A stretch of 64,000 nt of DNA. Origin: Polycladomyces zharkentensis. Its GTDB lineage: Bacteria > Bacillota > Bacilli > Thermoactinomycetales > JIR-001. The notes beneath the pieces were generated by a model. That model was given only the letters and a program-made list of their open reading frames with translations, was not told the DNA's origin and did not search any database. Every line of letters starts with the position of its first letter. The first letter of the stretch is position 1. A program made the position numbers and the translations under genes. Shown piece by piece: positions 1-61,249 of the stretch. The stretch lies in assembly GCF_016938855.1 (NCBI RefSeq), contig NZ_JAFHAP010000011.1:186001-250000 (forward strand), in the 5' to 3' direction.

Positions 1-462
1 CACGTGGGGCCGGTGCGGAAAGTCGCGGATTGCGTTGGCGGCCACCCGCTCCAGCATTTGTTCACCCTTGGCCTTGCGGTTTTGGTCTTTGTCGGTGAAC
101 CAGGTGATGGCGGTGTATTGAAACCGGTACAAACGTCCATCGTTGGAAAAGCGGTCCCGTTGTATGTGGGCGATCAGGGGCTGGGAAACATCGCGCCAGG
201 GTGTTTCCCTGATTCGGCCCGTCTCAGGCTCCTTCCACTTCGCCTTGACGAGGATGTTCCTGTGTTGGGAGACAGGATTGGGAGCAAACAATTTCCAGTT
301 CTGCATGAACAAAGGGTCCATATATTTCATCATGGGCTGAAACCATGATTGCTTGACCGGGTTGGGTGGTGCCAGATACAAAGCGGTCATGCCGAAGTGA
401 AAGACCAACAAGCATGCCAGGCCGATGATCCAAGTGCTCAATACGGTGGTTTTCCATTTCAC
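1..462 (-). CDS. DUF5819 family membrane-anchored protein (3' end cut by window edge)
   Basis: The minus-strand frame starts at a GTG at 462, preceded by a GAGGTGAG ribosome binding site, and stays open to the left edge, so the C-terminus is missing. The N-terminus has one hydrophobic segment at about residues 7-32. It is followed by the hallmark NWKLFAPNP at about residues 55-63, which I know from the DUF5819 family (function unknown). In other Firmicutes such genes tend to sit beside HTTM-domain genes, so an HTTM gene just outside the window is plausible but unseen. The antiporter gene lies 63 bases upstream on the same strand and may be co-transcribed. Family call is from motif memory; function unknown. 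Confidence 0.7.
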   Translation of the reverse strand, partial: MKWKTTVLSTWIIGLACLLVFHFGMTALYLAPPNPVKQSWFQPMMKYMDPLFMQNWKLFAPNPVSQHRNILVKAKWKEPETGRIRETPWRDVSQPLIAHIQRDRFSNDGRLYRFQYTAITWFTDKDQNRKAKGEQMLERVAANAIRDFPHRPHV

Positions 463-525
463 GGACCTCACCTCGTCCGGGAAGGTTCATCTTTCATCCT
501 ATCATACTTGGACAACAAAAACCGT

Positions 526-1764
526 TCATTCTTTGGTTACAGCCACACCGAGCCAACGGGCGACCACACCGGTGGTGCTCGCCTGAAGCACGATGGTGAA
601 CAGGATGGCGATAAATGTGACCGCCGCGATCACATCGGCATGAGCGACACCGGCACCGACGATCATGCCGGACAGGGCGGCAGGGATCACGCCGGTTTCC
701 CGCACCCAAAAGAAAAAAAACACTTCCCGCCAACGCCAGCGCGCGAGCCGGTCGGGAAGGGCGCATGCCAGCACGGCAAGCGGACGTGCAACAAACATCA
801 ACACAAGCACGACCAGCACGCCTTGCCACCAGTATTGGGACAATACGGCGAAATTGACTTGCGTCCCGAGCAGAACGAAGATCAGTTTGCGCAACAGCAA
901 TGTGACGGTGTCTCCGAATAAGACGATTTCCGAAACGGTGTCCTCCGGGATGCGCAACCGGAACAGATCCGGGTTGCCGAAGACGACGCCCGCGGCAAAA
1001 GTGGCCATGAAACCACTGGCGTGAATCCCCCCGGCTGTCAGGTAGGAACCGATCGCCACCAGCAGGCTGACCACTGTACCATACCGGCGAAACAGGCCGA
1101 TTCGATGCTCGGATGTGAACAACAAACCCAACCAGCCAACCAGGATACCGACGATCAATCCGCCGCCGGCCTCACGAATGAAACTCCAGATGGTATCGAT
1201 GGCGGAAAAACGGGTTTCACCGAGGATCAGTCCCAGGACCGTGAAGGTGAGAATCGAACCGGTGGCATCGTTGAACGCGGATTCCGATTCGACGGTTTGC
1301 CGTACCCGGGGTTCCACTGCGACTTGGCGGAAGACGGGAATCAATGTCGCCGGATCGGTCGAGGCGATCACCGCAGCCAACAAGGCAGCATACAGGATCG
1401 GCAGTTTCAATACGGCGACCGCCGCTGCTGTCACGATGGCGGCAGTGATGAGCACGCCGGGAACGGACAACAGGGTCACCGTGATCCATACGCGCTTCAA
1501 TACGGAAAATTGAATCGCTCGCCCACCTTCAAACAGGATCAAGGTGGACCCGATCAAAATGATGAACTGATAAGCAACGGAGTTGCCGGGCTGTACGATC
1601 CAGTTGAATCCGGCCGGACCGACGAGCATGCCGAGTATCAGGAATAACGCGACGTCGGGGATGCGAATCCGTTCCGCCAGTCGGGTGGCGATCAGCCCGA
1701 GCAGAAAGACCATGGCAAACATGTACATTTCGGTTTGTGCGATTTCCATTACTTTGGATTCCAT
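526..1764 (-). CDS. Cation:proton antiporter (CPA1/NhaP-type)
   Basis: A 412-residue integral membrane protein with about a dozen hydrophobic segments. It begins with a short hydrophilic N-terminus and then the antiporter-like stretch RLAERIRIPDVALFLILG at residues 27-44. The middle holds SESAFNDATGSI, in which the ND pair fits the ion-binding aspartate region of CPA1 exchangers. This family swaps Na+ or K+ for H+ across the cytoplasmic membrane in pH and salt homeostasis. There is no long cytoplasmic C-terminal TrkA domain; it ends soon after the last membrane helix. The start ATG at 1764 follows AAAAGGAG. A promoter lies at 1840-1869. Ion preference cannot be read from sequence. Confidence 0.85.
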   Translation of the reverse strand: MESKVMEIAQTEMYMFAMVFLLGLIATRLAERIRIPDVALFLILGMLVGPAGFNWIVQPGNSVAYQFIILIGSTLILFEGGRAIQFSVLKRVWITVTLLSVPGVLITAAIVTAAAVAVLKLPILYAALLAAVIASTDPATLIPVFRQVAVEPRVRQTVESESAFNDATGSILTFTVLGLILGETRFSAIDTIWSFIREAGGGLIVGILVGWLGLLFTSEHRIGLFRRYGTVVSLLVAIGSYLTAGGIHASGFMATFAAGVVFGNPDLFRLRIPEDTVSEIVLFGDTVTLLLRKLIFVLLGTQVNFAVLSQYWWQGVLVVLVLMFVARPLAVLACALPDRLARWRWREVFFFFWVRETGVIPAALSGMIVGAGVAHADVIAAVTFIAILFTIVLQASTTGVVARWLGVAVTKE

Positions 1765-58108: not shown

Positions 58109-58155
58109 GGCCCCTCGTGTAAGAAAGCGCAGTCTTTCGCGAGGGGCCTGGTTTA
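58109..58155 (+). terminator. Hairpin after ctaF
   Basis: GGCCCCTCG (58109-58117) and CGAGGGGCC (58140-58148) enclose GAAAG/CTTTC, followed by a short TGGTTTAT. It is a strong stem with a weak T-tract, so it may only attenuate transcription into ctaG. Confidence 0.65.
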
Positions 58156-58192
58156 TAAGAAGATGAAAGCGAGCATCGGGCGGCTTCAGCCA

Positions 58193-58409
58193 CTCGCAAG
58201 TCCGACAGCGTTTTGGTACAATCAAGCCATGCAGCGAGAAAACGCTCAAAACTGCCATGCGATACTGATGATGAATCAAAACAGAACCGGACGGACGAAG
58301 CTTTCAAGGATGGATGTGGGGTTGCCACACCAAACCCCGATCAAGTGCGAAGCCCCACGCCGAACAAAGGGAGTCTCTCTGGGTGCTTCAACCATATGGA
58401 GCAAGTCAC
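58193..58409 (+). repeat. Repeat family 2, copy G (tnpB right-end/omega-RNA-like relic)
   Basis: It fills the gap between ctaF and ctaG. The 5' box CTCGCAAGTCCGACAG, then TTTTGGTACAATCA, includes an extended -10 (TACAAT 58217-58222). The middle diverges from copy H except GGACGAAGC and GGATGTGGG. The 3' end, GTGCTTCAACCATATGGAGC then AAGTCAC, matches copy H and the right ends of IS200/IS605-type tnpB elements as I remember them. No transposase frame remains. Confidence 0.6.
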
Positions 58410-58440
58410 GGATGGGAATCCCTGAACCGGGAGATGATGG

Positions 58441-59310
58441 ATGATGCACTCTCATATGCACCATGCCGCGCATGCCGGATCGCCGGTCGCGAGCTGGTTT
58501 CATTGGGAAGCGATTTTGATCGTACTGTTGTTGGGAATCGGTTATGCATGGTACACGGGACCGCGACAAAAACGCCTGGGTACAACGAGTCCGGTACCCA
58601 TTCATCAGAAAGTGTGGTTTTACACAGGCTTGGTATTGATCTATGTCGCGCACGGCAGCCCGTTGGCCGATTGGGGACACATATCGTTCAGTGTGCACAT
58701 GCTCCAGCAATCCATCATGTTTTTGATGATGCCGCCGGCCATTTTGCTGGGGATGCCGCCGGATGCGGCCAGAGCGATCGTCAAACGGATACCCAAGGGC
58801 TTGTTCGCGATTTTGACCCAACCGTTGAGTTCGATATTGCTGTTTAACCTGCTGTTTTCGTTGTATCATGTGCCTGTCATTTTCGACACCCTCATGAGTC
58901 AGTCATGGTACCATGTCATCAGCCATACACTGCTGATCTTGACCGCTTTCATGATGTGGTGGCCTGTGGTCTGTCCCGTACCTGAGTTGGACAAACTGAG
59001 CGAGCTGAAGAAAATCGCGTACATTTTTGCCAATGGCATCCTGCTCACACCGGCCTGTGCACTCATCATCTTTGCCCGTGAGCTGTTGTACGCGTCATAC
59101 GGGCATGTACAGGTTTTCGGTTTCCTGCCGCCGATCGATGATCAGCAGTTTGGTGGCGTGATCATGAAGATCATTCAGGAAATCGTGTATGGAATGGCAT
59201 TGGGGATTACCTTTTTCCGATGGGTGAAAAAAGAACGTGCCAAAAGCGATGAGCAAACGGATGCGGTCGCCGTTCGCATGCGCACAGCGGAAGGCGACGG
59301 GCATGCGTGA
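58441..59310 (+). CDS. ctaG: Cytochrome c oxidase assembly factor CtaG
   Basis: A 289-residue membrane protein of the Caa3_CtaG family (unrelated to Cox11). It has seven or so helices, a His-rich start (MMHSHMHHAAHAG), and internal conserved HGSPLADWGHISFSVHMLQQS, SLYHVPVIFDTLM and HTLLILTAFMMWWPV. It is needed in B. subtilis for assembly of the caa3 oxidase, likely for copper. GGGAGATG lies before the double ATG at 58441. The family 2 repeat sits between it and ctaF. Confidence 0.93.
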   Translation: MMHSHMHHAAHAGSPVASWFHWEAILIVLLLGIGYAWYTGPRQKRLGTTSPVPIHQKVWFYTGLVLIYVAHGSPLADWGHISFSVHMLQQSIMFLMMPPAILLGMPPDAARAIVKRIPKGLFAILTQPLSSILLFNLLFSLYHVPVIFDTLMSQSWYHVISHTLLILTAFMMWWPVVCPVPELDKLSELKKIAYIFANGILLTPACALIIFARELLYASYGHVQVFGFLPPIDDQQFGGVIMKIIQEIVYGMALGITFFRWVKKERAKSDEQTDAVAVRMRTAEGDGHA

Positions 59311-60531: not shown

Positions 60532-60990
60532 TCAAAAAACTTTGTTCGGAAGATATCTCAGGGCTTGTTTCAAGCGGCGGACCTCTTCATCAATCTTTTT
60601 TTCATCTAGATTGCCATAACCCAAAATTACTTTGTTACGGTGTAATCCTTTTTGTATCGAATGGAGTTCTACCGGATAGATTTTGACTTTGTGTTGATGG
60701 ATACGAAGGAGAGTATTTTCATGAAACGCTACATTTTTAAACTCTGCGATTAAGTGAAGACCCGTAGAATCACCGGTTATGGATACTTGGTCTCCGAATG
60801 CTTCTTTGAGGCAAGATTTCAGACATTGTCTTCGGCTCATGTACAACTTCCGCATCTTGCGAATGTGGCGGTCCAAGCTCCCGTTATGGATAAACCTCGC
60901 GAGGGTGATCTGTTCCAATGATGGAGTGTGCAGGTCATAAAACCATTTCAGCTCTCGGCACCGTTGAACCAGGGTTCTCTCGCAGCCCGA
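60532..60990 (-). pseudogene. 3' remnant of a MocR/PdxR-type GntR-aminotransferase regulator
   Basis: Only the last 145-150 codons remain. LVQRCRELKWFYDLHTPSLE, then LARFIHNGSLDRHIRKMRKL and a C-terminal VILGYGNLDEKKIDEEVRRL match the end of MocR-family proteins (winged helix plus PLP-dependent aminotransferase-like domain, normally about 470 residues). The reading breaks off upstream near 60990, exactly where the family 2 element begins. No 5' half lies beyond the element, so the gene has lost about 320 codons, including the PLP lysine and the DNA-binding domain. Confidence 0.85.
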
Positions 60991-61171
60991 CAGAATTTTG
61001 GTACAATCACAAGTCGAGAAGTGCGAAAACACTTAAAACTACGATGCGAGCAGAGACTCGTTAAACCTAAAATCACCGAGACTTGGACGAAGCCATCGTG
61101 TATGGATGTGGGTAGCCACGCCAGATGAAGCGAGAAGGCCTCTGGTGCTTTAGCCGAGCGGAGCAAGTCAC
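60979..61171 (+). repeat. Repeat family 2, copy H (tnpB right-end/omega-RNA-like relic)
   Basis: The 5' box CTCGCAGCCCGACAGAATTT with TTTTGGTACAATCAC has an extended -10 (TACAAT 61002-61007). The 3' part reads GGATGTGGGTAGCCACGCCA, then GATGAAGCGAGAAGGCCTC, TGGTGCTTTAGCCGAGCGGA and GCAAGTCAC. CGCCAGA (61119-61125) and TCTGGTG (61141-61147) pair. This resembles the 3' guide-RNA scaffold of IS605-type tnpB transposons. It abuts the truncated mocR gene. Confidence 0.65.
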
Positions 61172-61249
61172 CATCATTTTCCCATAAAAATTGGTATACA
61201 TATTCCCTGAAATAGGTGCAAATCAGCAAAAAAACAGAGTCCGTGACGG

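Follow-up and report, generated by a model that had tools for sequence, protein, structure and literature searches.

Two short stretches of the window raise the question of whether they are remnants of a mobile element, genes for a guide RNA or parts of host genes. The window is the whole stretch of 64,000 nt that was analysed (contig C11:186001-250000 of a 3.3-Mb genome, G000). We consider it probable that both stretches, here called copies A and B, are decayed elements from a non-autonomous family of the IS200/IS605 type that carries an omega-RNA-like scaffold, and for which we propose that a box acts as promoter and that TnpB and a Y1 transposase act in trans.

A sequence-only reading had placed copy B at 58193-58409 and copy A at 60979-61171. 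The ends were retained and the starts were revised: copy B begins at ~58157, after a TTTAT, and the family similarity of copy A begins at ~60974 (Table 1). The common box and 3′ end described in that reading were recovered. The 14-nt box TTTTGGTACAATCA occurred exactly twice in the window and in none of 100 shuffles, and the two copies shared three collinear stretches of 26–28 nt each (79–88% identity). With copy B as the query, copy A was found in the whole genome (E 2.6e-9). With copy A as the query, copy B was not among the 42 matches listed (40 of 96 candidates scored). The own-genome matches listed numbered at least 42 for copy A and at least 40 for copy B, with 40 candidates scored per query. 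The lack of tnpA and tnpB was also confirmed, as neither PF07282 (TnpB) nor PF01797 (Y1 transposase) matched within the window at E ≤0.001.

Table 1. Features of copies A and B, in positions of the window
Feature	Position	Strand	Basis
Copy A, 5′-truncated non-autonomous element, left end mostly lost	~60974..61171	+	nhmmer, family model positions 94-289
Box TTTTGGTACAATCA of copy A; extended -10-like TGG TACAAT at 60999-61007; no good -35	60996..61009	+	
Two small hairpins of copy A: AGTG-CGAAAA-CACT at 61020-61033, CGAG-CAGAGA-CTCG at 61047-61060	61020..61060	+	module present in other genera
Omega-RNA-like scaffold / right end of copy A	61080..61171	+	family comparison
Flank of copy A, would-be 16-nt guide	61172..61187	+	position after TCAC, by analogy with ISDra2
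Target / TAM TTTAT of copy B	58152..58156	+	sequence; family TAM
Copy B: degenerate left end, box, middle, right end	58157..58409	+	family alignment; orthologous insertion in two congeners
Box TTTTGGTACAATCA of copy B, TACAAT at 58217-58222	58211..58224	+	
Hairpin AGCG-AGAAAA-CGCT of copy B, one double change with respect to AGTG/CACT	58233..58246	+	
Right end of copy B, with a broken stem 1, a GTC (58405-58407) and, by eye, a retained stem 3	58290..58409	+	
Flank of copy B, would-be guide	58410..58425	+	

A sigma-70 scanner, whose rule requires a -35 element, reported no promoter at copy A or copy B. In the Rfam search of the window at gathering score, the copies were without a match, and the listing for copy A held only a chance-level entry (E 6.1). 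Neither whole copy folded better than shuffled sequence (z 0.29 for A and -0.50 for B), so the case rests on homology and not on folding energy. The values of the parts were modest: -1.56 for the scaffold of copy A, -1.00 for its leader and -2.07 for the scaffold of L042, a tnpB element described below. In the scaffold of copy A, four of the five pairs of stem 1 (GACTT/AAGCC) and stem 3 were kept, and stem 4 was lost. Its pseudoknot was kept as well, with the loop GAC (61086-61088) complementary to GTC (61167-61169); the 3′ end from GATGAAGCGAG on spans 61124-61171. When the guide of copy A preceded by TTTAT was sought as a target within the window, its own site was the single match. The two copies are themselves probably unable to work as mobile guide genes any longer, and they are better read as fossils than as host genes. 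A 166-aa frame adjoining copy A (60532-61032, minus strand) had no Pfam match and may be the remnant of a longer gene that was cut at the element.

The family was defined from nhmmer matches on fetched loci, aligned with MAFFT. Matches were retained if they began no later than model position 165 and extended at least to position 255, which gave 46 own-genome copies spanning middle and scaffold. Five further own-genome matches lie outside this set (C9:179030, C4:161420, C1:19563, C17:2231 and C17:92245), and further copies were found in two congeners. The family comprises ~50 copies with an element length of ~200–300 nt. A full copy consists of TTTAT or TTGAT, a left end, a ~70-nt middle and a right end, with no transposase or accessory gene inside. 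The left end reads AAAGAGCGAGCGGGAAAACCC with a hairpin and is followed by a long palindrome, GTCGGACGCGGGAGGG..CTCTCGCAAGTCCGAC; the right end reads GGCTTGGACGAAGCC..AAGTCAC. Among 22 scorable copies, 12 were preceded by TTTAT and 4 by TTGAT (16 together), and 29 of the 46 copies carried TCAC at the right end. All 33 readable guides were different, the best pair being alike at 11 of 16 positions. The shortened right end of copy A, without stem 4, was seen in eight miniature copies (L001, L002, L004, L005, L006, L009, L012 and L040) and also beside a decayed tnpB on C8 (L014). Eight copies with this common right end suggest multiplication after the loss of stem 4.

The sequence-only reading had been made to depend on a tnpB element with the same 3′ end elsewhere in the genome. 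Such an element is present on contig C2 (L042): the miniature copies, L042 and several decayed tnpB elements have in common the right end and, as far as the palindrome, the left end. The open tnpB frame of L042 encodes a protein of 372 residues with three Pfam domains (OrfB_IS605, Cas12f1-like_TNB and HTH_OrfB_IS605), which matched ISDra2 TnpB (8bf8) with E 1.7e-63. Three residues of this protein, D (gvDlg), E (afEdln) and D (aDRD), are matched by identical letters in ISDra2 TnpB. We take these three to be the catalytic residues. PF07282 had 19 matches in the own genome: three in frames of >350 aa, two cut by N or contig ends and 14 in frames of ≤160 aa. In the congener G001, the right end adjoining a 378-aa tnpB frame (L234) was 96% identical to that of the miniature copy L088. 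The shared ends support an assignment of the family to non-autonomous elements of the IS200/IS605 type, similar to PATEs (palindrome-associated transposable elements) or MITEs. Upstream of tnpB in L042 and L041 (~390-555, minus strand), a small reversed frame looked ribbon-helix-helix repressor-like by eye, and the tnpB promoter region of L042 contained the palindrome-like GTCGTTGACGAC (also by eye).

The right end was compared with the omega RNA of ISDra2. As described (PMC10097598), this RNA has a 116-nt scaffold with stem 1 and stems 2–4, followed by a 16-nt guide; the strand -105G to -103A forms a pseudoknot with -5U to -3C, and RNA 5′ of the scaffold is dispensable for cleavage. The family right end follows the same order of stem 1, pseudoknot, stem 2-3 and stem 4, which bears out the earlier remark that the 3′ end resembles an IS200/IS605 right end and omega RNA. 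In L042, the fold of the right end comprises GGCUU[GGACG]AAGCC, a stem with another stem inside it, and a CCCACGGC/GCCGUG hairpin; GAC in the loop of stem 1 is the complement of GUC in AAGUCAC. Stem 1 of other genera is GGCAU/GUGCC, GGCAU/AUGCC, GGCCA/UGGCC or GGCUC/GAGCC. The pseudoknot appeared across genera in compensatory variants (GAC/GUC, GAA/UUC, GGC/GUC, GAG/UUC and GGA/UUC).

Complementarity of the pseudoknot was found in all 18 chosen right ends. It was also found in 42 of 46 distinct right ends, a mixture of tnpB and miniature elements that had been pre-filtered for at least four of five stem 1 pairs and the end motif, the pseudoknot itself not being a filter. Alignment A2 consisted of the 18 right ends, hand-picked and non-random, again with tnpB and miniature elements mixed. 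For stems 1 and 3 and two pseudoknot pairs, a structure chosen after viewing the same sequences and the ISDra2 paper, A2 showed 19 double-change cells vs. 7.0 ± 1.9, a number reached in none of 500 shuffles. The cells were paired at 95.5% vs. 34–51% when slid. Four pairs had a double change, a number that is not unusual (150 of 500 shuffles). Among own-genome copies, a first and partly different draft structure with eight helices showed no excess of covariation, its score being equalled or exceeded in 108 of 500 shuffles, and the pseudoknot was kept in 21 and broken in 6 of the 27 scorable copies. The CCAGA/TCTGG and GAAGC/GCTTT helices of that draft were dropped for the ISDra2 layout. RNAalifold on alignment A1 (29 of 32 candidates; L066, L081 and L083 were omitted for damage) gave only 17 pairs and a covariation term of almost nil.

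Mean pairwise identity was calculated on up to 38 copies (8 of the 46 omitted, 29–38 rows per segment). The scaffold core had a value of 0.790, hairpin 1 of 0.774 and the promoter segment of 0.723; values were lower for hairpin 2 (0.679), the left tip (0.639) and the spacer that precedes hairpin 1 (0.632). For the scaffold core and hairpin 1, the bootstrap intervals were separate from those of left tip and spacer. Hairpin 2 was conserved no better than the linkers (0.632–0.681). Conservation of the right end may partly reflect the needs of the transposase.

A promoter-like box and a two-hairpin leader stand in place of the tnpB gene. The ~70-nt middle is made up of the TTTTGGTACAAT box and two small hairpins with GAAAA-like loops after it, and it is absent from the tnpB elements. 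Directly upstream of the scaffold there is accordingly the two-hairpin module, not tnpB, and no overlap with a tnpB 3′ end. The box reads TGG TACAAT, an extended -10-like site. Of 37 copies, 14 had GGTACAAT unchanged, 13 had it with one mismatch and 7 with two, and the other 3 had no such box. When three mismatches at most were allowed, the pattern GTGCGAAAACACTTAAAACTAC gave 46 matches in 11 of 61 genomes vs. 3 for the reversed control. The motif was exact or nearly exact in Thermoflavimicrobium dichotomicum and in a Thermoactinomycetaceae MAG. Of 12 places with the module outside the genus, at least five had the left-end palindrome and a -10-like box before it (by eye), and none had a tnpB start in the ~230 nt behind it that were inspected by eye.

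Other origins of the middle were considered and rejected. For a riboswitch or another known RNA, Rfam on 12 loci at E ≤0.5 returned only a tRNA. For a group I or II intron (IStron), Rfam at a relaxed threshold gave one chance-level, unrelated match. For a cold-shock gene leader, nine genomes with 19 cold-shock genes were examined and the module was present (up to 420 nt upstream, up to five substitutions) at just one of these genes, which makes it probable that the element brought the module along. The single case, in G033 (L189 and L211), is a remnant with a -10-like box and both hairpins, 175 nt upstream of the gene, and is a possible promoter exaptation. Decayed modules were also seen by eye upstream of same-strand frames, SDR-like and CoA-transferase-like, at L187 (G026) and L200 (G035).

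The sequence-only reading had offered non-autonomous elements mobilised in trans as one of two options, and this option is favoured. Two copies in G001 were 98% identical at different sites, which points to recent movement. For one G001 copy, L088 (263 nt), the own genome holds the empty site, where the two flanks (aligned at 89% and 74%) adjoin each other at the same point. The junction reads GCGTTTTAT|element|GAATAGCCG in G001 and GCGTTTTAAAGACAGCCG in the empty own-genome site. By its length, this one empty site, for the copy of a congener, corresponds to a precise insertion without target duplication, although the two species differ at 4 of 10 junction bases. ISDra2 is likewise stated to insert 3′ of TTGAT without duplication (PMC8612924). 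In the window, a target sign remains before copy B and was lost with the left tip of copy A. A full-length Y1 transposase was not found in the own genome, G001 or G023 by profile search (three partial matches in the own genome, one match in G001 and zero in G023), so mobilisation in trans may be over. Full-length Y1 transposases are present in G002 and G009.

A second lineage was found in another genus (G023), with four miniature copies of 378–402 nt that were 91–98% identical. The miniature L131 and the tnpB element L248 (open 377-aa frame) share ~250 nt on the left (78%) and ~97 nt on the right (70%). The shared left part includes a TTTACA..TTAAACT promoter-like region and the leader, and this family looks as if an internal deletion had brought the promoter region of tnpB next to the right end. 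Nine of 12 listed left-end matches in G023 were inspected, of which five were miniature and four led into tnpB. In G034, a further miniature family was seen by eye (L101, L141, L142, L143 and L188), with another left end, a -10-like box, a GAA/UUC-type right end and no tnpB between the ends.

Judged from its letters, the box may serve as a promoter and the copies may be transcribed. If so, each insertion would make its own scaffold, with a guide taken from its flank. A Y1 transposase would excise the miniature element in trans. TnpB from another element would load the miniature RNA, also in trans, and would cut the empty donor site, so that the miniature element would be restored after excision. 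From this we infer a possible benefit for retention. In its full form, this proposal is that of a mobile guide-RNA gene which combines a promoter of its own with a two-hairpin leader and a TnpB scaffold, and which TnpB from elsewhere restores at the donor site. The arrangement would have arisen at least twice in the group and would supply dozens of trans guides per one or a few TnpB proteins. We regard this full form as quite possible and put it forward tentatively.

The family might instead consist of plain internal-deletion MITEs, whose ends are kept for the Y1 transposase only, with an incidental box and no functional guide RNA. The weak promoter match and the decay of many copies fit such elements, as do the own-genome covariation at shuffle level and the six broken pseudoknots; the subfamily of copy A even reached eight copies with stem 4 lost. 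But the covariation seen across genera involves stem 1 and the pseudoknot loop, neither of which is part of the terminal hairpin; several genera have the leader module, and the scaffold core is conserved above the left tip. Moreover, a promoter-like region and the scaffold were kept together in two lineages. We therefore hold plain MITEs to be rather unlikely.

Domesticated RNA genes were the other option of the sequence-only reading; single copies would then have been retained for host regulation, as RNA genes or promoters. Downstream of copy B, ctaG (Caa3_CtaG, start at 58441) has the same orientation and could be fed by the -10-like box of that copy, and the G033 module precedes a cold-shock gene, if only one of the 19. 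However, G001 and G002 keep the insertion of copy B, with the same TTTAT behind the same hairpin, the left tip and the right end, while its middle is missing or unrecognisable in both; the region of site A holds other sequence there. Domestication of copy B is rejected on account of these orthologous insertions, and for the copies in general we deem it very improbable. Hardly any weight is given to a repeat or riboswitch-like leader unrelated to IS200/IS605, with a chance likeness to a tnpB right end. The copies do lack an Rfam match, but both ends are collinear with tnpB elements, in L042 with an open tnpB frame between them, and this and the empty site speak strongly against it. The preferred reading remains that of decayed, non-autonomous IS200/IS605-type elements with a scaffold.

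For TnpB, a role in the recovery of its own transposon at the donor site has been proposed (PMC8612924). If our proposal is true, a guide-only miniature element would show that this restoration can be used in trans and that selection for retention can act on the guide RNA alone. It would also show how one nuclease may come to serve dozens of guides, a step that the path from transposon nucleases to CRISPR required as well. The family may be a natural case of transposons that borrow the RNA-guided nuclease of another element to hold their place. The proposal is testable, as there are ~50 natural copies with different guides, the same genomes contain open tnpB frames whose right ends match, and a sister species offers an empty site.

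Among known systems, standalone omega RNAs of IscB systems, that is, guide loci without an adjacent nuclease gene, were reportedly described by Altae-Tran et al. in 2021. The difference is that they belong to IscB and not to TnpB. A TnpB-free miniature element with its own omega-RNA promoter was met in no title or start of an abstract in the literature searched, which covers few subscription journals, and in no passage of the available parts of PMC9956272 and PMC12558985. A promoter-bearing, high-copy miniature element of the TnpB type was thus not met in that literature, whereas PATEs themselves are known. PATEs belong to the IS200/IS605 family and are known, for example, in Halanaerobium hydrogeniformans; a single example there also kept 58 nt of tnpB and the full right end (PMC7290912). 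Compared with these, the present family is high in copy number, occurs in several genera and has a promoter-like box and a two-hairpin leader replacing the genes. There is also a likeness to the omega RNA (reRNA) of ISDra2 TnpB (PMC10097598 and PMC8612924), with stem 1, a pseudoknot with the 3′ end and further stems, a guide from the flank, a TTGAT-like TAM and the same TnpB family. Unlike ISDra2, which according to the same sources carries tnpA and tnpB and whose RNA overlaps the 3′ end of tnpB, the elements described here are free of genes, and the 5′ part of their putative RNA is not tnpB.
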